DNA from: Geodermatophilus marinus
GTDB lineage: Bacteria > Actinomycetota > Actinomycetes > Mycobacteriales > Geodermatophilaceae
Length of the DNA: 64,000 nt
Reading direction: 5' to 3'
Assembly (NCBI RefSeq): GCF_003428645.1
Contig: NZ_QVQH01000010.1
Location: 62,001-126,000 of the forward strand
Made by a program: the position numbers and the translations under genes
Shown here: positions 45,538-59,825 of the stretch, in pieces
Layout: each line of letters begins with the position of its first letter
Numbering within the stretch: position 1 is the stretch's first letter
Notes under the pieces: model-generated
Databases searched by the model: none
Seen by the model: the letters and a program-made list of their open reading frames with translations, nothing else
What the model was told of the DNA's origin: nothing

Positions 45538-45610
45538 GGGGACGTAGCTCAATTGGCAGAGCACCGCCTTTGCAAGGCGGGGGTTAGGGGTTCGATTCCC
45601 CTCGTCTCCA
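45538..45610 (+). tRNA. tRNA-Ala(TGC), host of the integrative element
   Basis: 73 nt, acceptor GGGGACG / CGTCTCC (one G-U pair), anticodon TGC at 45571-45573. The 3' part from the anticodon loop on (45569-45610) is inside the 43-bp attachment core, so the element restores a complete tRNA. Confidence 0.97.
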
Positions 45611-46763
45611 CTCCTCTGACGTGCGGATTCGCCTCCGTCGGGGGCTCTGTCGGGCCCTCCGACGGGGTCTCAGTCCGCAAAAAGTCCGCAACTTGTCCGC
45701 GGGATGCGGCGCGTAGGGCGTCCAGCCGGTCAGCCACGTCGTCCAGGTCGTCGTCGAACAGGTCGGTGTAGCGGTCCAGGGTCATGGCCGCCGAGGCGTG
45801 CCCGAGCATCCGCTGCACCGCCTTGACGTTGGCCCCCGCCTTGATCGCCAGAGATGCTGCGGTGTGCCGGAGTTCGTGCGGCGTGAGCCCGGGCTCACCG
45901 ATGGCCCGTGCCGCGGCGTCGAACCAGGCGGACCGGGCGTTCCGGTTGCGCAGCACCGCGCCCTGCGGCGAGGGGAAGGCCAGCTCGTCGGCAGGGCGGG
46001 TCACGACCGTCCGAGCGAGTTCATCGACGAGGAACCGCGGCAGCGGCACCGAGCGGCGGCCGTGGGTCTTGGGAGTGCCCCACACCAGGCGGGAGCCGTC
46101 GACCTCGGTGACAGCCTCCTCGACGAGCACCCGCCGGCGCAGCAGGTCGAAGTGCCGCACCCGCAGCGCCGCCAGTTCCGACCAGCGCAGCCCGCAGTAG
46201 CCGAGCACCAGGACGGCGACCCGGCCGGGCCCGGCGGCGTCGGCGAGCGCCTCGAGCTGCTCGGCGGTCAGGTACCGGCGGCGCTTCTCCTGCATCGGGG
46301 GCAGGGCGACGCCGAGCGCGGGGTTGACCGCCAGGCGCCGGTCGCGCACCGCGAGGCCGAGGATGCCGGACAGGACGCCCTGCGCCTTGCGGACCGAGGC
46401 CCCGGCTAGGCCCCGGTCGGAGAGCTCGGACAGCCAGGCCTGCACATCGCCGTGAGTCACCCGGATCAGCGCGACATTGCCCCAGCGCGGCAGAACGTGG
46501 GTCTTGAGGACGTCGGCGTAGCGGGCCCGGCTGGTGGGCTTGAGGTTGATCTTCCCGGCGAGCCAGACGTCGGCCAGCTCGCCAACCGTCGTCCTGGCCC
46601 GCTTGGGGTCGACGTAGGTGCCCGTCTGCACAGCCGCGGTGACCTCGTCGAGCCACCGCTGGGCGTCGACCTTGCGCTTGAAGTGGCGGGCGTGCTCCTT
46701 GCCGTGCTCGTCGCGGTACCGCGGCCGGTACGTTCCATCAGGCCTTCGCGCGATCGACGCCAT
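45549..46763 (-). CDS. int: Tyrosine-type site-specific integrase
   Basis: 404 residues. Catalyses integration at the tRNA. An N-terminal AP2-like/SAM-like region (IARRPDGTYRPRYRDEHGKEH), core-binding domain (residues ~55-150) and catalytic domain with Arg193 (GLRWSEL), His296-Arg299 (HELRH), His322 (LGHAS) and nucleophile Tyr332 (RYTDLF). The frame runs through attL: residues from about 385 on are encoded by the 43-bp core and the last five or six by the host tRNA-Ala gene, read antisense. Stop is inside the tRNA. Adjacent to attL, as usual. ATG start without a clear RBS. Confidence 0.96.
   Translation of the reverse strand: MASIARRPDGTYRPRYRDEHGKEHARHFKRKVDAQRWLDEVTAAVQTGTYVDPKRARTTVGELADVWLAGKINLKPTSRARYADVLKTHVLPRWGNVALIRVTHGDVQAWLSELSDRGLAGASVRKAQGVLSGILGLAVRDRRLAVNPALGVALPPMQEKRRRYLTAEQLEALADAAGPGRVAVLVLGYCGLRWSELAALRVRHFDLLRRRVLVEEAVTEVDGSRLVWGTPKTHGRRSVPLPRFLVDELARTVVTRPADELAFPSPQGAVLRNRNARSAWFDAAARAIGEPGLTPHELRHTAASLAIKAGANVKAVQRMLGHASAAMTLDRYTDLFDDDLDDVADRLDALRAASRGQVADFLRTETPSEGPTEPPTEANPHVRGVETRGIEPLTPALQRRCSAN
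45569..45611. repeat. attL core (left 43-bp direct repeat)
   Basis: Identical to 59783-59825. Starts TTTGCAAGG in the anticodon loop and runs to one base past the tRNA 3' end. Confidence 0.97.
45672..45700. repeat. Candidate integrase arm-type sites, left
   Basis: Three direct GTCCGC repeats at 11-bp spacing: AGTCCGCA (45672), AGTCCGCA (45683), TGTCCGC (45694). They lie inside the integrase gene. The same repeat, spacing and orientation occurs near attR (59645-59674). Confidence 0.65.
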
Positions 46764-46900: not shown

Positions 46901-47128
46901 TCACCGCCGGGCACCCGCTGTGGGGGAGACCTGGTCGTCGTGCTGGGCGTCGATCCAGCTGCGCAGGTCGTCGGAGCGGTAGAGAACGCGGCGGCCGAGG
47001 CGGAAGCTGCGCGGACCGGTGCCCAGGTGGCGCCAGTACCGGAGGGTGGCCACCGGGGCGCGGAGGAGTTCGGCGGCTTCGGTGATGGTGAGCAGTTCGG
47101 GCTCGCGACGGGCGGGATCGTCAGACAT
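46901..47128 (-). CDS. xis: Excisionase-type helix-turn-helix protein
   Basis: 75 residues with a MerR/excisionase-type winged HTH: LLTITEAAELLRAPVATLRY, then RHLGTGPRSFRLGRRVLYRS and WIDAQ. Small DNA-binding excisionase that directs the integrase to excision in actinobacterial elements. Same strand as int, 137 bp upstream of it, with the relaxase gene 162 bp further upstream, so the three could be read as one operon. ATG at 47128. Confidence 0.9.
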   Translation of the reverse strand: MSDDPARREPELLTITEAAELLRAPVATLRYWRHLGTGPRSFRLGRRVLYRSDDLRSWIDAQHDDQVSPTAGARR

Positions 47129-47290: not shown

Positions 47291-50092
47291 TCATCGACCG
47301 ATGCCCGGCGCGGCGCCCCTACGGACGAGGGATGGTCCCCGCCGCTCCGCCTCGGGCCGGGGGACGCTCGGTACCGGCGCGACCGGCCGCGGAGGAGCGG
47401 CTGCCGCCCGATCGCGCGAGTAGTCCTGGCGGTCTCGGGCAGCCTCTCGCGCGGCCAGCTCGGCGGCGTGGCCGGGGCCGAGGTCGGCCCGCCCGCGGCC
47501 GAAGACGGCGATCCACTGCACCCGAGCCTCGGCCACGTTGGCAGCGACGAGGTGCGCGGTGTTGGACAGCCGTCCGCGGGTCATGCCGACGTAGGCCGAT
47601 GCCGCGCCAGTCTGGTCACCGATCACCACGTGCGCGGCGGAAACGGTGTTCCCCTGCACGCCGTGCGCGGTGCTGGCGTAGGCCAGTTCCACGTGCTCGG
47701 TTACGTAGTCGGCGGGCAGCACCCGGACCCGTGTGCCGGCCGGGGTGACATCGCCGCGGGGGACGTTCCCGGTGGCCGTGCCGGCGGTGACCAGCAGCCC
47801 ACCGCGTCGGCCGACCGCGGTGACGGTCCACGTGTCCCGATTGGCCACCTCCAGGCTTCGGTCGTTGCGCCGGGTGGCGATCCGGTCGCCGGCGCTGATC
47901 CGCTGACCCGCCCGCGTGGTCACGACCAGGGTGTCGTCGATGCGGCCGTCAGCCACCAGCCGGTTGCGGATGGCGGCGTTGAGCTCGGTGACCTGCTCGC
48001 GGGTGTCCGCGACCACCGCGACGTCGGCCGCCTGGGGGTCGTGGGCGGCGATCGCGGCCAGGGCGTCGCGCAGCGCTGCGTGGTCGGGGTGCAGGTGGAT
48101 CCGGCCGTGGGCGAGGAGGGCGTCGAACACCGCTCCGGGGGTGTCACCCCGCCGCATCGCCAACGTCAGCTCGGCGTATTCACCGTCCGGAACCGACTGG
48201 CCGGTGCTGTCGGTGCGGGTGAAGCGGTGCACCGACTCCAGGGTCAGGCAGGCGGCCGGGTCGACGTGTGCGGCGGCCAGGTCCAGCACTCCGCCGCGGC
48301 CGACCGCGGCGAGCTGGTGGCGGTCCCCCAGCAGTGCCAGTCGCGCCCCGGCCTCGTCGGCGACGGTGAGCAGCGCGCGGGCGGTGTCCTGGTCGAGCAT
48401 GCCGGCCTCGTCGACGATCAGCAGATCGTCAGGCCGCAGCCGGGTGTCCTCCGCGGGCCGGGTGTGGATGCGGCCGGTGACCGGGTCGACCTCGCCGGGA
48501 GCGAGTCGGGTCCACTCGCCGTGCTCGTTCCAGCGCCAGCCGTGGGCGAAGACGAGGGACGCCGCCGATCCGGTGGTCGTGCCGACTTCCGCGCGGGCCG
48601 CTTGGGCGGCCTTCAGCGTCGGGGTGACCACCACCAGGCGCTGTCCCTGCCCTTCGAGCACGGCGCGCGTGGTGGCCAGCGTGGTGGTCTTGCCCGCCCC
48701 GGCCGCGCCCTCCACCACGACCAGCCTCCGGTTGCCTGCCAGGACGGCGACCGCGGCGGCCTGGCCGGGGTCCAGGCCCCGGACAGCGCCGGCCGGCAGC
48801 GCCGACAGCGGCGGTTTACCCAGCGGTTGCCGTCCGGCGCGGGCGGCGAACCGGGTGCGCAGGTCGGCCTCCACGTCGAGCACCGGCCGCGAGGTCCATG
48901 ACCGGACGTGTTCCGGCACCCCCTCCCGATCCACCAGGGGAACGCAGCGGTCGAGGGCGCGGGCGGTGAGGTCCTCGGCCAACTCGAGGCGCACCGCGGG
49001 GTCGGCGATGATGCCCTCGGCGGCGATCAGCCGCTCGACGTCGCCGCGGACGTCGGCGGCGTTCCAGGCCGAGCGGCCGGCGGCCAGTCGGGTCAGCACG
49101 GTGCCGGCGGCAGCTTCGCGATCGAGCCCGCCGACCGGGGTCGGCACCAGCGAGACGGGATGGGTCCGATCGCGATAGCCCAGTGACGCCAGCTCGGCTC
49201 GCCACCTCGCCACGAGGTCGGCGCCGGAGCGGGGGATGACCTTGTCCGGTCGCCCCTCGGCCCAGGCGCGGGCATCCCAGGCTCGCCGCAGCGCCGGACC
49301 GGGCTGTTCTCCCGGGTGCGCCGCCATCCAGTCGCGTTCGTAGCGGTCCAGGTTGCGCCCGATCTGCGCCGCCCGTGCGCTGAACGGGCCCGCATACTCG
49401 GCGAGCTCCTGTATTTCTCCAGTCGCATCCAGGGTGTAGCCGTGCGCGGCGAGCGCGGCCCGGAACTGCGGATCGCAGGCGACCGCGGCGTGCCCGATCC
49501 CGTTGATGGCGGCGAGGAAGTCGCGGACGCCGACGGTGTGCAGCCCGCGCCATTGTTCGGCGGCGAACACCCGGGCGCCGATCTGCAGGTGCAGATGCCG
49601 GTGCGGGTCTCCGGCGCGGGAGGTGTAGTGCCGCACCGTCACCGCCTCCAGGATCTCCACCGGCACCTGGACCTGGCCGCCGCGCGGGCCGACCCGGGTG
49701 GTGGCGTGGTCGGCGAGCCAGCCGATGATCTGGGCGGCGGCGCGGTCCTGCGCGGCGTCGTAGGCGTCCGCGACGTCGTCGTGCATCGCGGCGGCCAGCG
49801 ACCAGGACTTCGGGCCGTTGACCACCACCTCGACGAACCGCACCGCCTGGGCGTCGGTCCGCAGCCGCCCCCGTGGGTCGCCGGTGTCCGGGTCGCGACC
49901 GGCCACCCAGGTTTCGTAGGTCTCCCCCGTGAGCGGTGTCCGCTCGGCCAACCGTCCGTCGCAAGCCACGAAGCGGCGGGCCAGGCCGGTGCCCTCGGTC
50001 AGGTAGTAGTCATCGGCCCGGCTGCGGTCGGCCTCCAGGTACGCCCGAGCGGCCGCCGCTGACCCGGCGTACACCTTCATTCCACCGCGCAT
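47291..50092 (-). CDS. MobF-family relaxase with TraA-type helicase domain
   Basis: 933 residues from ATG 50092. Nicks oriT and unwinds the strand during mobilisation. Catalytic tyrosines in DDYYLTEG (about 27-34), the metal triad HRHLH (H164, H166, H168) of the HUH fold, then a RecD-like helicase with Walker A EGAAGAGKTTTL, VDEAGMLDQ and LLGDRHQLAAVG. An earlier GTG (50104) adds four residues; a later ATG (50080) is also possible. Absence of a T4SS or TraG/FtsK-like coupling protein nearby makes the element mobilizable rather than self-transmissible. Confidence 0.93.
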   Translation of the reverse strand: MRGGMKVYAGSAAAARAYLEADRSRADDYYLTEGTGLARRFVACDGRLAERTPLTGETYETWVAGRDPDTGDPRGRLRTDAQAVRFVEVVVNGPKSWSLAAAMHDDVADAYDAAQDRAAAQIIGWLADHATTRVGPRGGQVQVPVEILEAVTVRHYTSRAGDPHRHLHLQIGARVFAAEQWRGLHTVGVRDFLAAINGIGHAAVACDPQFRAALAAHGYTLDATGEIQELAEYAGPFSARAAQIGRNLDRYERDWMAAHPGEQPGPALRRAWDARAWAEGRPDKVIPRSGADLVARWRAELASLGYRDRTHPVSLVPTPVGGLDREAAAGTVLTRLAAGRSAWNAADVRGDVERLIAAEGIIADPAVRLELAEDLTARALDRCVPLVDREGVPEHVRSWTSRPVLDVEADLRTRFAARAGRQPLGKPPLSALPAGAVRGLDPGQAAAVAVLAGNRRLVVVEGAAGAGKTTTLATTRAVLEGQGQRLVVVTPTLKAAQAARAEVGTTTGSAASLVFAHGWRWNEHGEWTRLAPGEVDPVTGRIHTRPAEDTRLRPDDLLIVDEAGMLDQDTARALLTVADEAGARLALLGDRHQLAAVGRGGVLDLAAAHVDPAACLTLESVHRFTRTDSTGQSVPDGEYAELTLAMRRGDTPGAVFDALLAHGRIHLHPDHAALRDALAAIAAHDPQAADVAVVADTREQVTELNAAIRNRLVADGRIDDTLVVTTRAGQRISAGDRIATRRNDRSLEVANRDTWTVTAVGRRGGLLVTAGTATGNVPRGDVTPAGTRVRVLPADYVTEHVELAYASTAHGVQGNTVSAAHVVIGDQTGAASAYVGMTRGRLSNTAHLVAANVAEARVQWIAVFGRGRADLGPGHAAELAAREAARDRQDYSRDRAAAAPPRPVAPVPSVPRPEAERRGPSLVRRGAAPGIGR

Positions 50093-50141
50093 TCTCAATG
50101 TCACCCAACAATGACCAACAGGTCACCCTAGAAACGGCGAT

Positions 50142-50816: not shown

Positions 50817-50963
50817 CCCCGCCTCTCCTCAGCCCTTCAGGGTCGGCGGATCACGGTGCTCGCCGCCGTGAACTGTGCTGCCACCACTTCGGCACGTCGA
50901 TGGCATCCGTATCCTCCTAGGGAATCAAGGTCGGCCCGCTGGAATCCGAAGGAAGGACTGCGC

Positions 50964-51314
50964 GTGCTGAGCTTCGAGGAAACGATGGCCCTCGGTCAGG
51001 CGCAGTACCAGGACGTGATTGACCGGCTCACAGCCGTGGGGTGGCCCACGGCCTTCACGCAGACCGGTGGCATGAACGCCGCCCTGGAGATCCGCTTGGA
51101 CGGGGGCTTCAGCCTGCTGGTGACCGATGCCGCCGACAGCCTCGCGTGGGCCCGCGACGAGCACGACGGGTGGACGGTCGGGCTGTATGCGCCCGAGAAC
51201 CAGTACGACGGCGACTGCATGGCTTACGCGGTCAGCGACGACTCCAGCGTCGAGGCGCTCGAGTCGCTGATCCGCGGGTTGCTGCGCTCGGCCGCGAACC
51301 AGTCCGGCGCCTGA
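50964..51314 (+). CDS. Hypothetical protein, element cargo
   Basis: 116 residues, no recognised family. LSFEETMALGQAQYQDVIDR helix, then a beta-rich part (GGMNAALEIRLDGGFSLLVT, WTVGLYAPENQYDGDCMAYA) and a C-terminal helix. Resembles short immunity-like or DUF1871-like folds only loosely. GTG start with GAAGGAAGGAC upstream; an upstream ATG in frame lacks an RBS. Convergent with the next gene, 5 bp apart. Confidence 0.72.
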   Translation: MLSFEETMALGQAQYQDVIDRLTAVGWPTAFTQTGGMNAALEIRLDGGFSLLVTDAADSLAWARDEHDGWTVGLYAPENQYDGDCMAYAVSDDSSVEALESLIRGLLRSAANQSGA

Positions 51315-51319
51315 CGGCT

Positions 51320-52015
51320 TCAGAACAGCGGATCCTGGACCGCCGGCGCCGTCCGACCTCGCGATCGGGCGGGCCGTGACTGGATGAATGTCTGCCGCGC
51401 AGCGAGTATGGCCTCGGCCAAGGACATGGTGTCCCCGATCGACCGGCCAGCGACAAGCAGCAAGTCCGGGCGCGCTGGATCTATATCGAAGCGGCAGCCA
51501 GTGGGTTCGATGAGGCCGGCGAGGGCTTGGGCTCGGTACCGCGTGGCAGCGAACAGGACCACCGGGTGGTCCGACCAGGCCCTCTCATCGCAGTGACCCC
51601 GGCAGCTGGCGGCCGGGACCATGCCGACCGCGGCAAGGGCGTAGACCAGTCCCGCGATTCCAAGTTCAAGGCCATCAAGCGGCGGTTCCTCGGAGACGAC
51701 GGGCTCCAGCACAGCCCGCTCGGCCGGTCCGACATCCTCACGATCGCCGTCCAGGCCGGTCTCTACGACGTGTGCGATCCGATCGAAGTCCTCCGGCGTT
51801 TCAGCCAGGTCGGCGACTGCCGTCGCGAGACGGCGCTCCTCGCGGACCATCGACCGTGCCTCACCGAACGGGACATCCGTGATGGTCCAGACGTCGCGGA
51901 AGAATCCGATGCCCTCTTCATCGATCTCTGACCGCTTCGGCATCCAGTAGGTGGCCGCTGCCGGCAACTGCACCGTGCCCGAGACCTCGGTCCTGGGGAA
52001 CATGCCCCAGAGCAT
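51320..52015 (-). CDS. Hypothetical protein, element cargo
   Basis: 231 residues, no recognised family. Acidic central helices (SMVREERRLATAVADLAETPEDFDR-type segment), a hydrophobic GIAGLVYALAAVGMVPAASC stretch followed by RGHCDE (a possible metal or catalytic Cys/His cluster), then an alpha/beta C-terminal part. The start could be 52015, 52003 or later (51942). The only cargo gene on the minus strand; may be an independent module. Confidence 0.72.
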   Translation of the reverse strand: MLWGMFPRTEVSGTVQLPAAATYWMPKRSEIDEEGIGFFRDVWTITDVPFGEARSMVREERRLATAVADLAETPEDFDRIAHVVETGLDGDREDVGPAERAVLEPVVSEEPPLDGLELGIAGLVYALAAVGMVPAASCRGHCDERAWSDHPVVLFAATRYRAQALAGLIEPTGCRFDIDPARPDLLLVAGRSIGDTMSLAEAILAARQTFIQSRPARSRGRTAPAVQDPLF

Positions 52016-52289: not shown

Positions 52290-52943
52290 GTGACACCAGA
52301 AGAGCTCGAGGCCGAGTTCCTCCGGCTGACCGCGACCGGGGAGATGGACAAGATCCTTCGCATGCTTCGCGCGCGGCGCGACCAGCTCCCCCGAGAGGTC
52401 GTCCGCGAAATCCTCCAAGAGGCCTGCCTGGAGGTGGTCAAGCGTCAGCAGGCCGGCGGGCGGATCACCAACGTGGCCGGCCTGCTCGTAACGATCGGCC
52501 GGCGGCTGGTCGACAAGGCCTGGCAGCAGGTGGGGGAGGGCCGTGAGGTCGATGAGGCTTTCGCCCGCCGGGAACGTGAGACGGGCGCCTGGCAGCACGA
52601 CGACGCCTGGCACGCCGCCGTCGAGCGGGCCATGGAGTACGTCTTCAAGGCCGTCGCGAACTGGCCCGTCGACAACCACCGGCGGACGCTGCTTCTGATC
52701 ATCGAAGCGGCCGGCAACGGAATGCAGCTGACACCCCGGGACCTGGACGCCAACCTCGGCTGCGCCAAGGGCACCGGCCGGGTGTGGCGCGACAGGGCCT
52801 ACGAGCGGCTGCGCGCGCAGATCGAGGCCGACGGGATGTCCTGGGAAGCCATCGCCGACCTGCTGCCGGGGAGCCAGGACACCGACCTCGCTGACCATCA
52901 CCACACCGAGCCAGACGACGACGCCGACGAAGAGGAGATCTGA
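52290..52943 (+). CDS. Sigma-70-like / HTH regulatory protein
   Basis: 217 residues. A helical N-part (EILQEACLEVVKRQQAGG... RITNVAGLLVTIGRRLVDKA) resembles sigma region 2, and a C-part (LTPRDLDANLGCAKGTGRVW, then RDRAYERLRAQI) looks like sigma region 4 HTH, followed by an acidic tail. No anti-sigma gene nearby. GTG start with GGAGGGACC upstream. It heads the cargo operon: only 2 bp separate its stop from the ParB-like start, so it probably regulates or belongs to that system. Could also be a dedicated DNA-binding subunit. Confidence 0.72.
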   Translation: MTPEELEAEFLRLTATGEMDKILRMLRARRDQLPREVVREILQEACLEVVKRQQAGGRITNVAGLLVTIGRRLVDKAWQQVGEGREVDEAFARRERETGAWQHDDAWHAAVERAMEYVFKAVANWPVDNHRRTLLLIIEAAGNGMQLTPRDLDANLGCAKGTGRVWRDRAYERLRAQIEADGMSWEAIADLLPGSQDTDLADHHHTEPDDDADEEEI

Positions 52944-52945
52944 CC

Positions 52946-54523
52946 ATGGAGGCAAACCTGTCCGGAACACTCATCTCCGACCTGCGGACCCTGTTCGACG
53001 AGGTTGCGCTGCTGTGCACCGATGTCGACCCCCTGCTCTCCGGCGACCTCGCCGAGGTGCGCGACGAGCTGTCCGACGAGGAGCTGCACCACCTACTGAC
53101 CGAGGTGCTCGTGCACATCCGTGGCGGCGGCCAGCCCACCGACGCTCAGAAGACGACCCTGGCCGCGCAGGTGCGCGGGCTCATCCGGGACGCCATCCGC
53201 ACGCGCCGGCAGCCCCGACCGACTCCTTCGCTCGCGGCCGTCGAGGAGGAGGCCGGTCCGGCGCACAGCGGTGCCACCGACCCTTCGGCCCGGCGGCATC
53301 TGGAGCTCTACGGGGCAGCCGGCATGGAGGTCCGCCCGGTCCGGCCGATGCCGACCTTCCTGGGGAGCGACGTGCCCCTGACCGAAGGGTTCGCGGACAC
53401 GCTGGAGATCGCCTTCTGGGAGGACAACCTCCGCCTGAAGCTCGACCTCGACGACTTCCGCCGCAGGGAAGGCCGTGCTCCCGAACCGGACGAGCTGCGT
53501 CAGATGCTCTGGCCGAAGGGCGCCCTGCCGAAGGAGGACATCTACAAGATCCTTCCGCTGGCCGACGACATCGCCGCCCGTGGCGTACAGACGCCTCCGG
53601 TGATCGACTATTGGGGCACGGCGTGGGACGGCAACCGACGCCTCGCCGCCTGCCGCTACATCTTGGCCAGCGACGAGTACACGCCGGAGCAGAAGGCACG
53701 AGCCCGCAGGATCCGCGTCTGGCAGACCGACGAGCACGCCACCGAGGACCAGATCCAGGCGATCGTCACGTCGCTGAACTTCGGAGACGACTTCAAGGTG
53801 CCCTGGCCGGAGTACGTCCGTGCCCGCCAGGTTTACGACACCTACATCGCGCGGCGCGACAGCGAGGCGAGCCTGCGCGTCCTGACCGAACGCGACGAGA
53901 CCAAGATCCGGGCGGCGGTCGGCCGGTTCTTCGGCATCAAGACCCAGGAGGTGACCCGCTACTGCAAGATGGTCGTCTGGGCGCTCGACTTCGAGGACTA
54001 CCACCGCGAACAAGACCGTGACGAGAGTCAGATCGCCAACCGCACCAACGCGCTGTTCCAGTACTTCTACGAACTGGACTCTGGTCGCGGCGACGACAAG
54101 CTGGCCGTCAAACTCCGCGACGACGAAGGCTTCCGGGACATCGTCTTCGACCTCATGTTCGACGGCAAGTTCAAGAACTGGGCGCAGATCCGGGACCTGC
54201 GCCGGGTGTACGACAACCCGGAGGCACTCGATGAGCTGAAGCAGGCGCATCGCGAGACGGACAGCACGATCGGTCGGGCGGCGGTCAACCGCGCGATCGA
54301 CATCGCCCGCCAGCAGAGCACAGCCCTGCGGCAGGCCGGCCGGGCCGACGAGTTGGCCCGCATCACCAAGTGGCTCAACGAGGACGTGACCCTGGCGGTC
54401 CTGCGCAAGCTCGACCCCGAGGTCCTGCGAGAGTTCCGGGACGCCGCCCGAGCGGTCGACGGGATGATCAGCTCGCTGGTGGAAGGCTCCGCTGCGCCGC
54501 AAGCGGCACCGGGGGCGGCATGA
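52946..54523 (+). CDS. ParB/Srx-fold protein of the cargo cassette
   Basis: 525 residues. N-terminal ~85 residues form a small helical region (SGTLISDLRTLFDEVALL, ELSDEELHHLLTEVLVHIRG), then after a linker a ParB N-terminal-like domain with DYWGTAWDGNRRLAACRY (D228-G-N-R-R232), the counterpart of the GERR motif of ParB and DGQQR of DUF262 nucleases. The C-terminal half is helical. Likely an NTP-binding or DNA-recognising component. Stop overlaps the SNF2 start (ATGA). Function inferred from fold and context only. Confidence 0.78.
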   Translation: MEANLSGTLISDLRTLFDEVALLCTDVDPLLSGDLAEVRDELSDEELHHLLTEVLVHIRGGGQPTDAQKTTLAAQVRGLIRDAIRTRRQPRPTPSLAAVEEEAGPAHSGATDPSARRHLELYGAAGMEVRPVRPMPTFLGSDVPLTEGFADTLEIAFWEDNLRLKLDLDDFRRREGRAPEPDELRQMLWPKGALPKEDIYKILPLADDIAARGVQTPPVIDYWGTAWDGNRRLAACRYILASDEYTPEQKARARRIRVWQTDEHATEDQIQAIVTSLNFGDDFKVPWPEYVRARQVYDTYIARRDSEASLRVLTERDETKIRAAVGRFFGIKTQEVTRYCKMVVWALDFEDYHREQDRDESQIANRTNALFQYFYELDSGRGDDKLAVKLRDDEGFRDIVFDLMFDGKFKNWAQIRDLRRVYDNPEALDELKQAHRETDSTIGRAAVNRAIDIARQQSTALRQAGRADELARITKWLNEDVTLAVLRKLDPEVLREFRDAARAVDGMISSLVEGSAAPQAAPGAA

Positions 54524-56286
54524 CCATCGCCGAGTGCCGGGCGGACGGCCGTCTGCTTCGCTTCACCGCCGTCCGGTCGTCGGACCTGACACCGCTCCTC
54601 CGGGAACTGCGGCGCCAGCTCGGCTATGGGACGGTCCGACGCGCCGGCAGCGCACTGACGGCTCCGGCCCGACAGCTGACGTGGCTGCTGGAGCCGGGTG
54701 CCGCAGAGCGCATCGGCGTACGGCTCGATCCCAGCGCCGTGCGGGCTCTCGGGGTCCGGCGTCACGCCCATGCGGTCCACGCTGGCTATAGGGGACGAGT
54801 GCGCGACCTGCGGGACAACGGCGTCGAAGCCGCGCGGACACGGCTGGCGCGGAGGCCGACCCGGCAATGCATCGACGCGCTCGATGAGCACCAGATCGTC
54901 AACCTCGCGGCGATGACCGATCCCGACGGCTACGGGATGTGCCTCTTCGATGAGCAGGGAGCCGGCAAGACGGTGTCCGTCATCTACGCCTTCGACCGCC
55001 TGGTCGACCTCAACATCCACGACTGGATGCTGGTCGTCGCACCGAAATCCATGGTCGGCGAGTGGGCAAACGCCATCAGGGAGTTCATGGGGGACCGTTA
55101 CCGCGTGGCGGTGATCGCCGGTTCTGCGGCCGAGCGCCAGCAAGCCCTGGCCTCCGGAGCCGACGTGCTGGTGGCCAACTACGAGGCCGTGGCCTCGGTG
55201 GGGGACGCGCTCGTCCGACAGCTGCGCCGGAACCCCGACCGGGCCCTGCTGGTGGTCGACGAGTCGTTCAACGTCAAGAACCCGGATGCACGCAGGACGC
55301 GTGACCTCGAGTCGATCCGCGACTGGTTCGGCCGGGTCTGGATGCTCTGCGGCACACCGGCGCCGAACAGCGCACACGACATCGTTGCGCAGATCGACCT
55401 GGTTGACTTCGGCCAGACCTTCGACGGCGTGGTGATCCCGAAGGACCGCGCCGCGGCCGTGCCGGTCGTCCGGCGGGCCTTGGACGAACGCGCCATCTAC
55501 TTGCGCAACCTGAAGGCCGACGTCCTGCCCGAGCTGCCCGGCAAGGTCTTCACCCGCGTCGTCGTGCCGCTCGCGCCGACACAGAGCCAGCTGTACACCA
55601 GTGCCCTCGGCAGCTTGATCGCCGACGTCGAAGCACTCGACGAGGCCCAGTTCCTCCGCAACCTCGGCGACTTCCTCAGCCGTCGCATGGCACTGCTGCG
55701 CATCGCCTCTAACCCGTCCGGCATCTTCCCCAACTACGACGAGATCCCCGGCAAGCTCGCGGCACTCGATGACATCGTGGACCGGCTGGTCGTCCAGTCC
55801 GGCGACAAGCTGGTCGTCTGGTCCTGCTTCACGGCCTCGCTCGACGCCATCGTCCGCCGCTACGAACACCTGGGCGCGGTCCGTTACGACGGCACCGTGA
55901 CAGCCATCGAGGCGCGACGCGCGGCGGTTCACCGCTTTCAAACCGACGCTGACACCCGGGTATTCGTTGCGAACCCGGCAGCGGCCGGCGCCGGCCTCAC
56001 TCTGCACGCTGCTCGATACGCCGTCTACGAGTCCTTCACCAACCAGGCGGCGCACTATCTGCAGAGCCTCGACCGCATCCACCGGCGCGGCCAGAAGCGG
56101 CAGGTCGAGTACCTGGTGCTGCTGGCAGAAAGCTCCATCGAGCCGCACGAGTTCGACCGGCTGGTGGCGAAGGAGGAGCGGGCCAGAGATCTCCTCGGCG
56201 ACGCGGTCGAGCCTCCTGTCACGCGCGAACGCTTTCTGACCGAGCTGCGGGGCAGCGAGCAGGGCGCGACGGTGGGGGCGCCGTGA
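54520..56286 (+). CDS. SNF2-family helicase/translocase
   Basis: 588 residues. Walker A CLFDEQGAGKTVSV (K150-T151; a DEQGAGKT variant of the usual DEMGLGKT), DEAH-box VVDESFNVKN, LCGTPAPNS, then the second RecA lobe with NPAAAGAGLTLHAA and LDRIHRRGQKRQV (motif VI). Motor is apparently intact. About 120 N-terminal residues precede the motor with no known domain. ATG overlaps the ParB-like stop; its own stop overlaps the PD-(D/E)XK start (GTGA), so three products are co-translated. Double-strand DNA translocation in restriction or repair is the probable role. Confidence 0.93.
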   Translation: MTIAECRADGRLLRFTAVRSSDLTPLLRELRRQLGYGTVRRAGSALTAPARQLTWLLEPGAAERIGVRLDPSAVRALGVRRHAHAVHAGYRGRVRDLRDNGVEAARTRLARRPTRQCIDALDEHQIVNLAAMTDPDGYGMCLFDEQGAGKTVSVIYAFDRLVDLNIHDWMLVVAPKSMVGEWANAIREFMGDRYRVAVIAGSAAERQQALASGADVLVANYEAVASVGDALVRQLRRNPDRALLVVDESFNVKNPDARRTRDLESIRDWFGRVWMLCGTPAPNSAHDIVAQIDLVDFGQTFDGVVIPKDRAAAVPVVRRALDERAIYLRNLKADVLPELPGKVFTRVVVPLAPTQSQLYTSALGSLIADVEALDEAQFLRNLGDFLSRRMALLRIASNPSGIFPNYDEIPGKLAALDDIVDRLVVQSGDKLVVWSCFTASLDAIVRRYEHLGAVRYDGTVTAIEARRAAVHRFQTDADTRVFVANPAAAGAGLTLHAARYAVYESFTNQAAHYLQSLDRIHRRGQKRQVEYLVLLAESSIEPHEFDRLVAKEERARDLLGDAVEPPVTRERFLTELRGSEQGATVGAP

Positions 56287-56714
56287 GCGCCCCCACCCTG
56301 GTCACCGGTCGGCCGAGCCCGGCACACGAAGCCCGGGTCGACCTCCTCGCGACGCTCGCGAGACTGGCGGGACACGTGGCTCCTATCGATGCCCTTCCCG
56401 ACGGCAGCCGGCCAGACGTGGCCCTGGTTCGGCCGGGAGACCGCTCCCTCTTCCTCGGCGACGCCAAGGCGACCGAGACCCCCCGGAGTGCTGAGACCCT
56501 CAGGCGGCTACGGCAGTACACCGCCTTCCTCGGCCAGTACGTGGCGGCCGGCGGCCTCGGCGTGTTTGCACTGGCCGTCCCCACCGTCGAGCGGTACGGC
56601 TGGCTCCGAGTCCTCCAGGACGTCTGCACCGAAGTGGTGAACGGCCCGGCCGAAGCTCGCCTCGATGTCATCGACGCCGGATGCGCCGTCGTCTGGGAGG
56701 CGTTCCTCCCCTAA
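56283..56714 (+). CDS. Small PD-(D/E)XK nuclease-like protein
   Basis: 143 residues. DGSRPDVALVR (D45) followed by SLFLGDAKATETP (D60-A-K62) and a helix RRLRQYTAFLGQY fits the PD-(D/E)XK core (PD...DxK, then alpha helix), with Asp in the second acidic position. Shorter than most restriction enzymes, so it may need partners. GTG start overlaps the SNF2 stop. It could also be a Hjc-like or degenerate nuclease. Gap of ~100 bp follows before the methyltransferase. Confidence 0.72.
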   Translation: MSAPTLVTGRPSPAHEARVDLLATLARLAGHVAPIDALPDGSRPDVALVRPGDRSLFLGDAKATETPRSAETLRRLRQYTAFLGQYVAAGGLGVFALAVPTVERYGWLRVLQDVCTEVVNGPAEARLDVIDAGCAVVWEAFLP

Positions 56715-56801
56715 GCCTCGGCTCCCGGCGGCGCCCACCATCACGATGCGTGACGGAGCCGACTCTCCGACGAGAACATCGACGATGTCATTTCCCCCGG
56801 G

Positions 56802-56807
56802 TAGTGT
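56802..56807 (+). promoter_or_regulatory. Possible -10 box for the methyltransferase-Vsr gene
   Basis: TAGTGT, 8 nt before GTG 56816; would make the methyltransferase independently transcribed. Confidence 0.4.
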
Positions 56808-56815
56808 CCAACCAT

Positions 56816-58483
56816 GTGAACTGCCCTGACGCTCCGCTCCGTGTCGCCGACCTGTTCTGCGGGGCCGGCGGCCTGAGCCAGGGCTTCAAGGAGGCTGGCT
56901 TCGAGATCGCTCTGGGCCTGGACCGGGACAAGGACTCCTGCGAGACCTTCGCCCACAACCATCCCGGCGCCGTCGTTATCCGGAAGAGCATCACTGACGT
57001 CCCGCCCCAAGATTTCCTTCAGCTCGCGGGCGGCAGGATCGACGTCATCGTCGGCGGGCCAAGCTGTCAGGGCTTCTCGACCGCCGGGCGGCTCGGCCGG
57101 CTCGGTCGGGACGCCGAACCGGACGCCGAGCGCTGGGTCCGCCCGGACGACATTCGGAATGACCTCTGGCGCCACATGCTGAAGGTCGTCGAAGCGGTTA
57201 AGCCCAAGGCCTTCCTGCTGGAGAACGTCCCTGGACTCGTCTACTGGAAACAAGGGTCTCTCGGCGAGACGGTCCTGCAGGCGTTCAAGGACCTGGGCTA
57301 CGCCGTCGACCTCAAGATCCTTCTGGCGGCCGACTTCGGTGTGCCGCAGCGCCGCCGTCGGCTCTTCGTGGTCGGCGTTCTCGGGGACGCCAAGTTCAAC
57401 TGGCCCGTCGAGACCCACATGGGCGGTTGGCGTCGGGACACGCTGCACCTGTGGGAGGCCCGCCGTGTCCAGAGCGGCAAGCTGCCGCACATCAGTTGCT
57501 GGGAAGCCATCCGCGACCTGCCCCCGCTGGGCGGCGAGGCCGGAAGCTCTGAGAGCACGTACGGTCGCCGGACCTCAACGTCTCCTATTGCCACCTGGCT
57601 GCGGCGTCGAAGCCGGGTCCTGAGAGACCACGAGGTCGCTCCACTGAGCGATGACCACAGGCAGCTGCTCGAGTTGGTGCCCCGCGGAGGCACCTGGCGG
57701 GACATCCCGCCACATCTGTTGCCTGACCGGTTCCGGGGGATGCGGCGTACGGACAGCACCAATCTCTACGGCCGCCTCGACCCGTCCCTGCCGGCGTACA
57801 CGATCAACACGCAGTTCGATAACCCGAGCACCGGTTGCTACACGCACCCCTTCGAGGACCGTGCCCTGACGGTGCGTGAGGGTGCTCGGCTGCAGACCTT
57901 CCCCGATACCTACGAGTTTGTCGGGAAGCTCACTTCGCGCTACCGACAGATCGGCAACGCCGTCCCCCCACTGCTGGCTGCAACCCTTGCGGACGCGCTC
58001 GCCGATCAGTTGCTCGATGGTGCCCGCCCCCCCTGGCGTGTCACCATCAAGCCCATGCAGCCGGCGTACAAGCCGCCGACCGACCAGACGCGCGCACGCA
58101 TGCGGCGGCAAAGACGAGTGGACACGGGTCCCGAAGTCGCCGTCCGGAAGGCACTGCATGCCCGAGGGCTCCGGTTCCGGAAGGGTTATGCGGCCTTGGC
58201 TGATCGGCGCTCAGTTGACATCGCCTTCCCGAATCAGCAGGTCGCCGTATTCATCGACGGATGCTTCTGGCATGGCTGCCCACAGCATGAGCGCGCCACC
58301 AAGTCCAACACCGTCTGGTGGGCCGACAAGATCGCGGCGAACAAGCGCCGCGACGCCAAGACGGTGCGCGACCTGGAAGCGCAGGGCTGGGCCGTACTGC
58401 GATTCTGGGAGCACGAGCAGCCCGAGCACGTGGCCGACGTCGTCGCGCAGACGATCGCTAGGCACAGGGAACCGGCTGCCTGA
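56816..58483 (+). CDS. C5-cytosine DNA methyltransferase fused to Vsr endonuclease
   Basis: 555 residues from GTG 56816. Methyltransferase part: motif I DLFCGAGGLS (12-21), motif IV GGPSCQGFS with catalytic Cys84 (usual GGPPCQ), ENVPG (136-140), QRRRRLFVVG, and RQIGNAVPP (motif X). Vsr part, about residues 430-550: VDTGPEVAVRKALHARGLRF, DIAFPNQQVAVFIDGCFWHG, NTVWWADKIAANKRRD. Methylates cytosine at an unknown site and, if active, nicks T:G mismatches arising from 5mC deamination. Fusion into one chain is unusual. A GTG at 56804 or a longer frame back to 56681 is possible. Follows the SNF2/PD-(D/E)XK genes. Confidence 0.92.
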   Translation: MNCPDAPLRVADLFCGAGGLSQGFKEAGFEIALGLDRDKDSCETFAHNHPGAVVIRKSITDVPPQDFLQLAGGRIDVIVGGPSCQGFSTAGRLGRLGRDAEPDAERWVRPDDIRNDLWRHMLKVVEAVKPKAFLLENVPGLVYWKQGSLGETVLQAFKDLGYAVDLKILLAADFGVPQRRRRLFVVGVLGDAKFNWPVETHMGGWRRDTLHLWEARRVQSGKLPHISCWEAIRDLPPLGGEAGSSESTYGRRTSTSPIATWLRRRSRVLRDHEVAPLSDDHRQLLELVPRGGTWRDIPPHLLPDRFRGMRRTDSTNLYGRLDPSLPAYTINTQFDNPSTGCYTHPFEDRALTVREGARLQTFPDTYEFVGKLTSRYRQIGNAVPPLLAATLADALADQLLDGARPPWRVTIKPMQPAYKPPTDQTRARMRRQRRVDTGPEVAVRKALHARGLRFRKGYAALADRRSVDIAFPNQQVAVFIDGCFWHGCPQHERATKSNTVWWADKIAANKRRDAKTVRDLEAQGWAVLRFWEHEQPEHVADVVAQTIARHREPAA

Positions 58484-58616: not shown

Positions 58617-58829
58617 ATGTCGATCGCAGAGAGCAGCGCGTCTGTCGAGGTCAGTGAGCTCACCCCCGAGGAAGCCCGCGCGGCCTTCGACCGAATCGCC
58701 CACGCCGCGATGGACGTGAGCGGCGAGGAGTTCCTCGCCGCCCTCGATGAGGGCAAGTTCGATGACGTCGACCCCGATGACCACCCCGGGCTGCTCGACG
58801 TGCTCATGGCTCTTCCCCTCGTACGCTGA
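58617..58829 (+). CDS. Small acidic protein
   Basis: 70 residues. SIAESSASVEVSELTPEEAR, a helix ending MDVSGEEFLAALDEGKFDD, then VDPDDHP and a final LLDVLMALPLVR. ATG follows AAGGAGG (58603-58609), a strong RBS. Similar short proteins with an EFL..DEGKFDD-like segment occur in actinobacterial mobile elements. Only 6 bp before the next gene, so the pair may act together. Confidence 0.75.
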   Translation: MSIAESSASVEVSELTPEEARAAFDRIAHAAMDVSGEEFLAALDEGKFDDVDPDDHPGLLDVLMALPLVR

Positions 58830-58835
58830 CGCCTC

Positions 58836-59405
58836 GTGCCGGGAGCTTCGCCGTATCAAGCGGTCGAGGCGTTCCTGGCCCCTCTAGAACGAGCGATTGC
58901 CTGCCTAGGCAGCGGAAAGATCGTTGTCTCGCCTGGCGGGCGCGCGGCGACGGACAAGACGCATCTCTGGCGGCTCAATGGCGGAGACGGCCTTGTCCTA
59001 CGTGGTGACGCGGCCGGCTGCCGGTTCCTGGCGTCCATGCACTACCGGATCATCCCAACCGACCCCGAGAAGTACGACGTCGAACAGGGGCGCTGGCGGG
59101 TCACGACGTCGGCCTACCTGTATGAGTTCCGGACGCCGGACAACGCGAAGCTGTGGGCGATGCACTGGCACCCGGCTGGCAAGAGCCACGCCACCTTCCC
59201 GCACCTCCACCTGTACACCGTCCGCTCCGAAGGGCACTTCGTCACGCCGCGACAGACCCTCGAGTCGGCGGTGCAGTGGTGCATCGAGATGGGAGCAGAG
59301 CCGCAGAACCCCCAGTGGCGCACCGTGCTGGCCGAGTCGGAGGGCATCCACCAGCTCTACCGATCGTGGTCGGAGGACCCGCCGCCGCTGGCAACTGACC
59401 GGTGA
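58836..59405 (+). CDS. Hypothetical protein, possible TumE-like
   Basis: 189 residues, family not certain. N-terminal helices (AVEAFLAPLERAIACLG), then an alpha/beta part with LWAMHWHPAGKSHATFPHLH: several His spaced like those of TumE/DUF6516-type toxins (..DN..H..FPHHKH), followed by a helix TLESAVQWCIEM. GTG start without RBS, 6 bp after the small acidic gene, suggesting coupling. Whether the pair is a toxin-antitoxin module is untested. Last gene before attR. Confidence 0.7.
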   Translation: MPGASPYQAVEAFLAPLERAIACLGSGKIVVSPGGRAATDKTHLWRLNGGDGLVLRGDAAGCRFLASMHYRIIPTDPEKYDVEQGRWRVTTSAYLYEFRTPDNAKLWAMHWHPAGKSHATFPHLHLYTVRSEGHFVTPRQTLESAVQWCIEMGAEPQNPQWRTVLAESEGIHQLYRSWSEDPPPLATDR

Positions 59406-59782: not shown

Positions 59783-59825
59783 TTTGCAAGGCGGGGGTTA
59801 GGGGTTCGATTCCCCTCGTCTCCAC
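59783..59825. repeat. attR core (right 43-bp direct repeat)
   Basis: Perfect copy of 45569-45611; contains only the 3' part of tRNA-Ala, no functional tRNA. The 461-bp gap around it (59406-59866) has no gene. Confidence 0.97.

Follow-up and report, generated by a model that had tools for sequence, protein, structure and literature searches.

A candidate restriction-modification-like cassette joining a sigma-like protein, a ParB-fold protein and an SNF2 motor on an integrative element of Geodermatophilus marinus

Introduction

What might be the function of a tight row of genes that places a sigma-factor-like protein and a ParB-fold protein beside a DNA motor, a small nuclease-like protein and a DNA methyltransferase? 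The question is raised by five plus-strand genes, here called the cassette, at positions 52290-58483 of a 64,000-nucleotide stretch of Geodermatophilus marinus DNA (contig NZ_QVQH01000010.1, positions 62,001 to 126,000; hereafter the window, in whose coordinates all positions are given). They encode a protein resembling extracytoplasmic function (ECF) sigma factors (SIG), a protein of ParB/Srx fold (PARB), an SNF2-family ATPase, a small PD-(D/E)XK-type protein and a C5-cytosine DNA methyltransferase fused to Vsr. To our knowledge, neither sigma-type proteins nor ParB clamps are familiar from restriction systems. An earlier note on this DNA had proposed the five-gene set as a new defence cassette within a mobile element. 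What the sequences show are the components, the integrity of their motifs and the conservation of their linkage, and from these we infer that the cassette is probably an ATP-dependent restriction-modification-like defence system on an integrative, probably mobilisable element; within this reading the general assignment to restriction-modification is the firmer point, while the order of the steps is a guess.

Results

A core of three genes is conserved in distant bacteria

A scan of genome contigs with an SNF2 alignment seeded by plasmid relatives gave 77 loci from the best 80 of 237 confirmed relatives, whose gene content was scored from open reading frames (ORFs) and profiles, no gene finder being used. 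In a tree of 84 SNF2 proteins, built by a quick method and uncertain as to its root and its long-branched outgroup rows, three groups each lie on one side of a branch, with support by the Shimodaira-Hasegawa-like approximate likelihood-ratio test of 97 for A1 together with the window (25 rows), 93 for A2 (9 rows), 98 for B (43 rows) and 100 for A1 and A2 combined (clade A); one locus with a short SNF2 ORF and no partners (L069) was assigned to neither A1 nor A2. Gene content follows this tree. Besides the window, 23 of 24 A1 loci carry SIG, PARB and SNF2 in that order (L050, whose contig begins inside SNF2, is retained in the denominator), 20 have a C5 methyltransferase within 9 kb and 16 have the small nuclease gene, with a fragment of it at the contig end in L040; a Vsr-like match occurs in 7/24 A1 and 1/9 A2 loci. 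The A1 loci bear ten phylum-level labels (Actinomycetota, Pseudomonadota, Planctomycetota, Cyanobacteriota, Melainabacteria, Acidobacteriota, Nitrospirota, Bacillota, Chloroflexota and Binatota), some of which may be wrong since many of the genomes are metagenome-assembled. Conservation of the core in such distant bacteria indicates a unit that really travels and not genes that adjoin by chance, and runs counter to the possibility, left open by the earlier note, that the genes rarely co-occur elsewhere.

The spacing of the genes agrees with this picture. In the window, a 2-bp gap separates SIG from PARB, PARB and SNF2 share an ATGA overlap at 54520, and SNF2 and the small protein a GTGA overlap at 56283; the methyltransferase-Vsr ORF is open from 56681, and its in-frame GTG at 56816 leaves a gap of 101 bp after the small protein. 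The order and tight packing that had been described for the five genes are thus confirmed. In 15 of 23 A1 loci the SIG-to-PARB spacing lies between -7 and 23 bases, several of the longer overlaps stemming from the choice of the first start codon, and such spacing would fit a stoichiometric complex. Pairwise evolutionary distances within A1 correlate strongly among the core proteins (SIG-PARB 0.86, SIG-SNF2 0.88, PARB-SNF2 0.90; 27 rows each), and less so between these and the small nuclease (0.51-0.60, 18 rows) or the methyltransferase (0.52-0.61, 23 rows), the value for the latter two with each other being 0.47 (17 rows); the rows are related by descent, so that permutation p-values overstate the significance of these figures.

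Copies also occur on contigs of the IMG/VR collection, where PARB relatives were found on five contigs and SNF2 relatives at 28 loci (of these, L142 lies on the same contig as L134, as a second piece of SNF2). Three contigs are of A1 type and combine SIG, PARB and SNF2 with the methyltransferase, the small nuclease being present on two of them; one of the three is not independent of L060, as its SNF2 and methyltransferase proteins are identical to those of that locus after rounding. Ten loci with a more distant SNF2 protein (L136, L138-L141 and L143-L147) have neither PARB nor the small nuclease and serve as a natural control.

The methyltransferase is linked to the core and exchangeable

Scans with Pfam, NCBIfam and PADLOC covered nine proteins of the element, its integrase, helix-turn-helix protein and relaxase being assigned by Pfam alone. 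The last protein of the cassette matches PF00145 (E 4.2e-61) and the Vsr family PF03852 (E 8.5e-17), together with TIGR00675 and TIGR00632 above cut-off, so that both domains exceed curated cut-offs, and motifs I, IV (GGPSCQ), VI, VIII and X were all found. Judged by its sequence, the cassette contains the methyltransferase with intact motifs that restriction-modification in the broad sense requires. Motif IV of C5 methyltransferases usually reads PPCQ; in 19 of 23 A1 enzymes, including that of the window (57053-57079; residues 125-133 of the protein, P0005), it is GGPSCQ, GGPACQ or GGPCCQ.

For the comparison among A1 loci, one methyltransferase per locus was taken, namely the best match to P0005. 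These 22 enzymes vary in place, lying upstream, downstream or on the opposite strand, and a different C5 type fused to Vsr is shared by the window, L038 (Mycobacterium colombiense) and L054 (Nocardia caishijiensis) at 52-69% identity. This variation, the 101-bp gap in the window and the four of 24 A1 loci without a C5 methyltransferase within 9 kb are what would be expected if the methyltransferase-Vsr protein were solitary and merely a chance neighbour of SIG, PARB, SNF2 and the small protein, which would then act separately as a helper of the element in DNA repair or segregation. We regard this as improbable, given that a C5 methyltransferase lies near 29/34 clade A loci versus 1/43 loci of clade B, which has candidate modification genes of its own, and that 18 of the 22 enzymes have a relative of at least 57% identity in another A1 locus, wherever they are placed (those of L042, at 35%, and L052, at 43%, have no A1 relative reaching this level). 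Taken with the distance correlations, the varied methyltransferases suggest that SIG, PARB and SNF2 travel as a unit whose modification enzyme is exchangeable within a restriction-modification-like system. A plasmid search based on the methyltransferase was too unspecific to be informative.

The SNF2 motor and a candidate nuclease

The SNF2 protein matches PF00176 (E 2.4e-22) and also PF00271, and the sequence EQGxGK[TS] is present in all 39 clade A SNF2 proteins, that of the window included. PADLOC matches to its core are generic, the best being ZorD (E 4.4e-29) and DpdE (2e-25). A plasmid search with this protein returned 383 records, all below 60% identity, among which the best alphaproteobacterial matches led to clade B.

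The small protein has no Pfam match, no PADLOC match at E<=0.1 and no convincing profile match to the Protein Data Bank (PDB), so that its identification as a nuclease depends on motif and position. In an alignment of 32 rows that took in 14/16 clade A1 and 15/43 clade B proteins, H15, P44, D45 and K62 are invariant and residue 60 is always D or E, which makes the protein a candidate PD-(D/E)XK nuclease with its motif intact.

A ParB-fold protein with an altered catalytic position

As a single sequence PARB gave no convincing Pfam match and no PADLOC match at E<=0.1, and its profile found no ParB in the PDB, only weak matches to designed proteins. Its AlphaFold2 model (mean predicted local distance difference test score, pLDDT, 85.7) was placed by Foldseek closest to the ParB N-terminal domain structure 5k5d (E 2.8e-3, probability 1.00) and also matched the CTP- or CDP-bound ParB structures 7bnr and 6sdk, the ParB matches having probabilities of 0.99-1.00 with none at E<=1e-3. 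In BFVD the model matched viral proteins, several of them named ParB or DdrB-like, eight at E<=0.001. The motif DGNRR is kept in 24 of 24 PARB rows, and fold prediction and the GxxR nucleotide-binding motif together identify PARB as a member of the ParB/Srx superfamily. In ParB CTPases the catalytic residue is the glutamate of GERR; its position is occupied by asparagine in all 24 rows, which suggests slow CTP hydrolysis by PARB, or none.

Searches with the single PARB sequence found no relative in the genome contig collection, plasmids or phages; among 397 genomes of the order they found the own genome and one weak match (G283, E 9.1e-4) at E<=0.001, and among 396 genomes of the phylum 30 had a match at E<=0.05, the own genome included, the weak matches being taken as noise. 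The family profile at E<=1e-8 recovered the own genome alone (1/396 in the phylum sample and 1/397 in the order sample), at most three first-look candidates per genome having been scored, so that misses are possible. With the PARB relatives of L039 and L062 as queries nothing was found in plasmids, nor in phages with that of L062. The cassette family is, by these searches, rare within the host's own phylum and order. PADLOC run on the 24 PARB relatives gave nine families, each matching one member weakly (best E 1.3e-4, the candidate system PDC-M38A).

A sigma fold that may serve DNA recognition

SIG, too, had no convincing Pfam match and no PADLOC match at E<=0.1 as a single sequence. A family profile of 22 rows (L044 and L056, which have long N-terminal extensions, were excluded) matches ECF sigma factors (1or7_A, E 1.5e-7, profile positions 48-203, spanning sigma2 and sigma4), Sigma70_r4_2 of Pfam is found in 15 of the 22 members at E<=0.1, and Foldseek ranks ECF sigmas top for the AlphaFold2 model (pLDDT 83.8), with none at E<=1e-3. 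The protein, previously described as a sigma-like helix-turn-helix, retains that sigma relation and is more than a helix-turn-helix: by profile it has both the sigma2 and the sigma4 regions of an ECF sigma. The other domain calls of the earlier note were likewise right, SNF2, C5 methyltransferase and Vsr by Pfam, the ParB and sigma folds by family profiles or models, and PD-(D/E)XK by motif.

With both regions detected, SIG could be a true ECF sigma factor and the cassette a regulated module for element maintenance or gene expression, in which SIG would switch on the operon or genes of the element and PARB would be a DndB-like regulator. In ECF sigmas the glutamine of region 2.2 matters for contact with RNA polymerase. 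The corresponding position, Q in 1or7, is A in 14 of 22 rows and Q in a single row, that of the window itself; SIG is moreover absent from clade A2, and such a module would leave the nuclease motif and the methyltransferase unexplained. We consider a role as sigma-driven regulator unlikely for the cassette. The prevalence of alanine favours a DNA-reading part for the family over that of a working sigma, an argument that is weaker for the window's SIG, to which the sole glutamine belongs, and a DNA-recognition subunit is a likelier role for SIG than that of a free transcription factor. Further genes of the SIG family lie apart from the cassette position at L055:16868-17443 and L073:1310-1990.

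Two related gene sets, A2 and B

The nine very tightly packed A2 loci all have the methyltransferase and a short PARB, and neither SIG nor the small nuclease (0/9 for each). They comprise the methyltransferase, an ORF of 265-304 amino acids upstream of PARB (9/9), PARB, SNF2 and an ORF of 395-444 amino acids downstream of SNF2 (8/9, the ninth contig ending), the flanking ORFs being matched between loci by size and position. The C-terminus of the downstream ORF looks PD-(D/E)XK-like in the two sequences inspected, and the only Pfam match to this ORF is Cas4, in one sequence (E 0.0096). Three IMG/VR contigs of A2 type carry PARB, SNF2 and a P0005-like ORF, in one case as a partial 37% match.

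In clade B at least one ParB-family gene stands beside SNF2 and a small nuclease in 43/43 loci. A radical SAM enzyme accompanies 34 of these, a GHKL ATPase 19 and a DndB/DpdB-like gene 12, whereas all three score 0/34 in clade A; these counts were obtained by BLAST at E<=1e-5 with the gene set of one Rhizobium and, owing to contig ends, are lower bounds. In Pfam and PADLOC the Rhizobium proteins match DndB PF14072 (E 7.7e-8), DpdB (E 8e-19), HATPase_c_3 (E 6e-11), PIN_8 (E 5.6e-19) and, under its gathering score, Radical_SAM (E 1.2e-5). In IMG/VR, eight loci are of type B and carry the radical SAM gene; it is missing from L129, where ParB and the small nuclease are present, and L134 and L137 have ParB only. 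Plain BLAST with the window's PARB reaches 32/34 clade A and 4/43 clade B loci, and no locus of clade B is reached with the small protein; the link to clade B depends on the PARB and small-nuclease profiles, which were iterated and drew in clade B, and on weak matches to Rhizobium-type loci (PARB best E 7e-6; small protein by phmmer E 3e-5 and 4e-5). Clade B may combine a new DNA modification with the same restriction core.

The integrative element and its setting

The cassette lies in a 14.2-kb element bounded by identical 43-bp repeats at a tRNA-Ala(TGC) gene (45538-45611), the left repeat falling inside that gene. With its integrase and TrwC relaxase the element is integrative and probably mobilisable, which bears out the mobile location already proposed for the genes. 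The surrounding chromosome has a high content of guanine plus cytosine, mostly 70-80%; that of the integrase-relaxase half of the element (45-50 kb) is 72-76%, resembling most of the remaining window, and that of the cassette half (50-60 kb) 62-70%. Four small cargo ORFs (50949-51311 +, 51320-52015 -, 58617-58829 + and 58836-59405 +) went unmatched in Pfam, NCBIfam and PADLOC.

Table 1. Genes and repeats of the element, and loci of the related gene sets. Positions without a locus prefix refer to the window.
Feature	Position	Strand	Basis or remark
SIG, ECF-sigma-like protein, 217 aa, sigma2-like and sigma4-like helix-turn-helix	52290..52943	+	profile, AlphaFold2, Foldseek
PARB, ParB/Srx-fold protein, 525 aa, DGNRR at residues 228-232	52946..54523	+	motif, AlphaFold2, Foldseek
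SNF2-family ATPase, 588 aa, Walker A DEQGAGKT from residue 144, DRIHR motif	54520..56286	+	PF00176, PF00271, tree
Small PD-(D/E)XK-type protein, 143 aa, PD 44-45, DAK 60-62	56283..56714	+	motif conservation
C5-cytosine DNA methyltransferase fused to Vsr	56816..58483	+	PF00145, PF03852, TIGR00675, TIGR00632
att repeat, 3' end of tRNA-Ala(TGC)	45569..45611	+	repeat search, tRNA call
Second att repeat, 43 bp identical to the first	59783..59825	+	repeat search
Tyrosine integrase of the element	45549..46763	-	PF00589, E 4.5e-23
HTH_17/MerR-like small protein, probable excisionase by inferred role	46901..47128	-	PF12728, E 1.3e-11
TrwC-type relaxase with helicase domain	47291..50104	-	PF08751, E 3.5e-54
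A2 loci	L058, L059, L061-L066, L071 (e.g. L062:6297-12578)		very tightly packed
Clade B-type loci	L032-L035 and L072-L114 (e.g. L032:6499-16742)		ParB-PD(D/E)XK-SNF2-ParB beside radical SAM enzyme

The joined flanks of an empty site were sought in 31 genomes, and none appeared among the matches listed; among these, the left flank with the tRNA is matched in 18 same-genus relatives and the right flank is without match. In three same-genus genomes (G781, G170 and G312) the 3' end of tRNA-Ala recurs (90-100% identity over 41-43 bases) about 4-16 kb from the tRNA, and by virtue of these copies the gene looks like a repeatedly used integration site. Elsewhere, the cassettes of L039 and L054 have a tRNA gene no more than about 0.6 kb away (L039:7143-7232 and L054:14275-14348), as if these loci too were islands at tRNAs, and no repeat of at least 16 bases was found for either tRNA. 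An Eco57I-type enzyme is encoded upstream of SIG-PARB-SNF2 in L041, and large ORFs downstream of the cassette at L067:11823-14444 (874 amino acids) and L047:5785-8325 (847 amino acids) have no Pfam match at E<=0.1.

Discussion

Comparison with known systems

The 2023 library of PADLOC gave no system match, only generic SNF2 and methyltransferase matches, so that the earlier note's alternative of a published system recognisable by profile search found no support. DISARM, which consists of DrmA, DrmB and DrmC with DrmMI/DrmMII and DrmD/DrmE, resembles the cassette in combining a helicase-type motor and a C5 methyltransferase in a single defence locus, and the SNF2 protein partially matches DrmD, but the cassette has SIG, PARB and the small PD-(D/E)XK protein in place of DrmA/DrmB/DrmC. 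We reject DISARM on the lack of a PADLOC match to the DrmA helicase, DrmB (DUF1998) or DrmC (PLD) among the nine element proteins, in agreement with the earlier distinction of the two; the methyltransferase does match DrmMII (E 1.9e-75), with the generic MTase_II models scoring better (E 3.3e-97).

The likeness to ZorD of Zorya and DpdE of Dpd is confined to the SNF2 helicase core, with no partner gene matched in the nine proteins; Zorya was rejected as ZorA, ZorB and ZorC found no match and the NCBIfam score for ZorD is 38.9 bits against a cut-off of 1500. The Dnd, Ssp and Dpd systems resemble the cassette in having a ParB/Srx-superfamily protein (DndB/DpdB) beside modification and restriction genes; they differ in their modification, for which the cassette has C5 methylation and, among the nine proteins, no Dnd or Ssp modification gene. 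Type I and Type III restriction-modification were set aside because no HsdR/M/S or Mod/Res appeared among the Pfam, NCBIfam and PADLOC matches listed for these proteins, ResIII scoring 18.7 bits, below its cut-off of 22.5. The candidate PDC-M38A matches clade B ParB proteins weakly (E 6.6e-9 and 1.9e-5), over a stretch of about 150 residues of a 715-position model, and does not match the window's PARB.

In operons linked to MORC and MutL, genes for an SWI2/SNF2 helicase, a cytosine methylase and Vsr-type proteins occur in related neighbourhoods (Iyer 2008, PMC2292703); the word ParB does not occur in that paper, and a MORC-type reading was rejected since one type-B GHKL query found no GHKL ATPase near clade A (0/34). 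No such gene set was recognised in a literature search that included the accessible parts of PMC12839542, PMC10853773, PMC5512222 and PMC3710099, and outside which lay most subscription papers and bioRxiv preprints. Within the limits of the databases and literature searched, the cassette is best read as restriction-modification of a new composition.

A proposed mechanism and what weighs against it

The occurrence of a motor, a nuclease motif and a modification enzyme in a single tight set, its mobile setting and its copies on IMG/VR contigs all argue for restriction. In such a system the methyltransferase would mark self sites with 5-methylcytosine, while Vsr would guard against mutation by repairing the T:G mismatches that arise from deaminated sites. 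SIG and PARB would form a recognition and loading unit on unmarked incoming DNA, where PARB, as a ParB-type nucleotide-gated clamp, may close on the DNA and recruit or license the SNF2 translocase; this ATP-driven motor would then deliver or activate the small PD-(D/E)XK nuclease, leading to a cut.

Several findings weigh against this reading. The small nuclease is absent from seven A1 loci for which downstream sequence exists (L041, L045, L051, L052, L055, L060 and L067), and three of these, the cyanobacterial L041, L045 and L055, also have no C5 methyltransferase within 9 kb; the same is true of L047, which lies on a contig that begins a short way upstream of SIG. With the catalytic glutamate of GERR replaced throughout the PARB rows, use of CTP is uncertain, and as the window's SIG retains the region 2.2 glutamine that its relatives do not have, a role with RNA polymerase is possible for it. 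The neighbours of A1 loci are mixed, with three integrases, two AbiEii, two N6 methylases and a TIR protein (raw counts, for which no enrichment is claimed) in a survey of 98 of 146 listed neighbours and the first 25 of 107 families. The small nuclease gene of the proposed defence cassette is not universal, and the cassette is one of three related gene sets.

A machine that, once triggered, attacks the DNA of the host or of a rival plasmid, with methylation as antitoxin, would suit its carriage by an integrative element with a relaxase and its presence on viral-labelled contigs, yet nothing in the sequence separates such abortive infection or inter-element competition from restriction, and we give it little probability.

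Implications

A broader reading, which we offer tentatively and consider rather doubtful as it stands, is that A1, A2 and B belong to a restriction superfamily with a core of ParB clamp, 'EQG' SNF2 motor and small PD-(D/E)XK nuclease and with swapped modification modules. In A1 the module would be C5 methylation, a sigma factor having been repurposed to read the sequence; in A2 it would be C5 methylation combined with a different reader and nuclease; and in clade B the modification would be the work of a radical SAM enzyme, together with a GHKL ATPase and, in some loci, a DndB/DpdB-like protein. If this were true, restriction would be licensed quite generally by nucleotide-gated ParB clamps, a sigma factor would have turned into the subunit that confers specificity on restriction, and the DNA modification made by clade B would be a new one.

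The cassette itself adds a conserved, horizontally spread gene set without a PADLOC system match, which joins a sigma-type protein and a ParB clamp in a restriction-like set and makes testable predictions as to the methylome motif, the dependence on ATP and CTP and the site-reading subunit, while its sister clade B points to a possible radical-SAM DNA modification.

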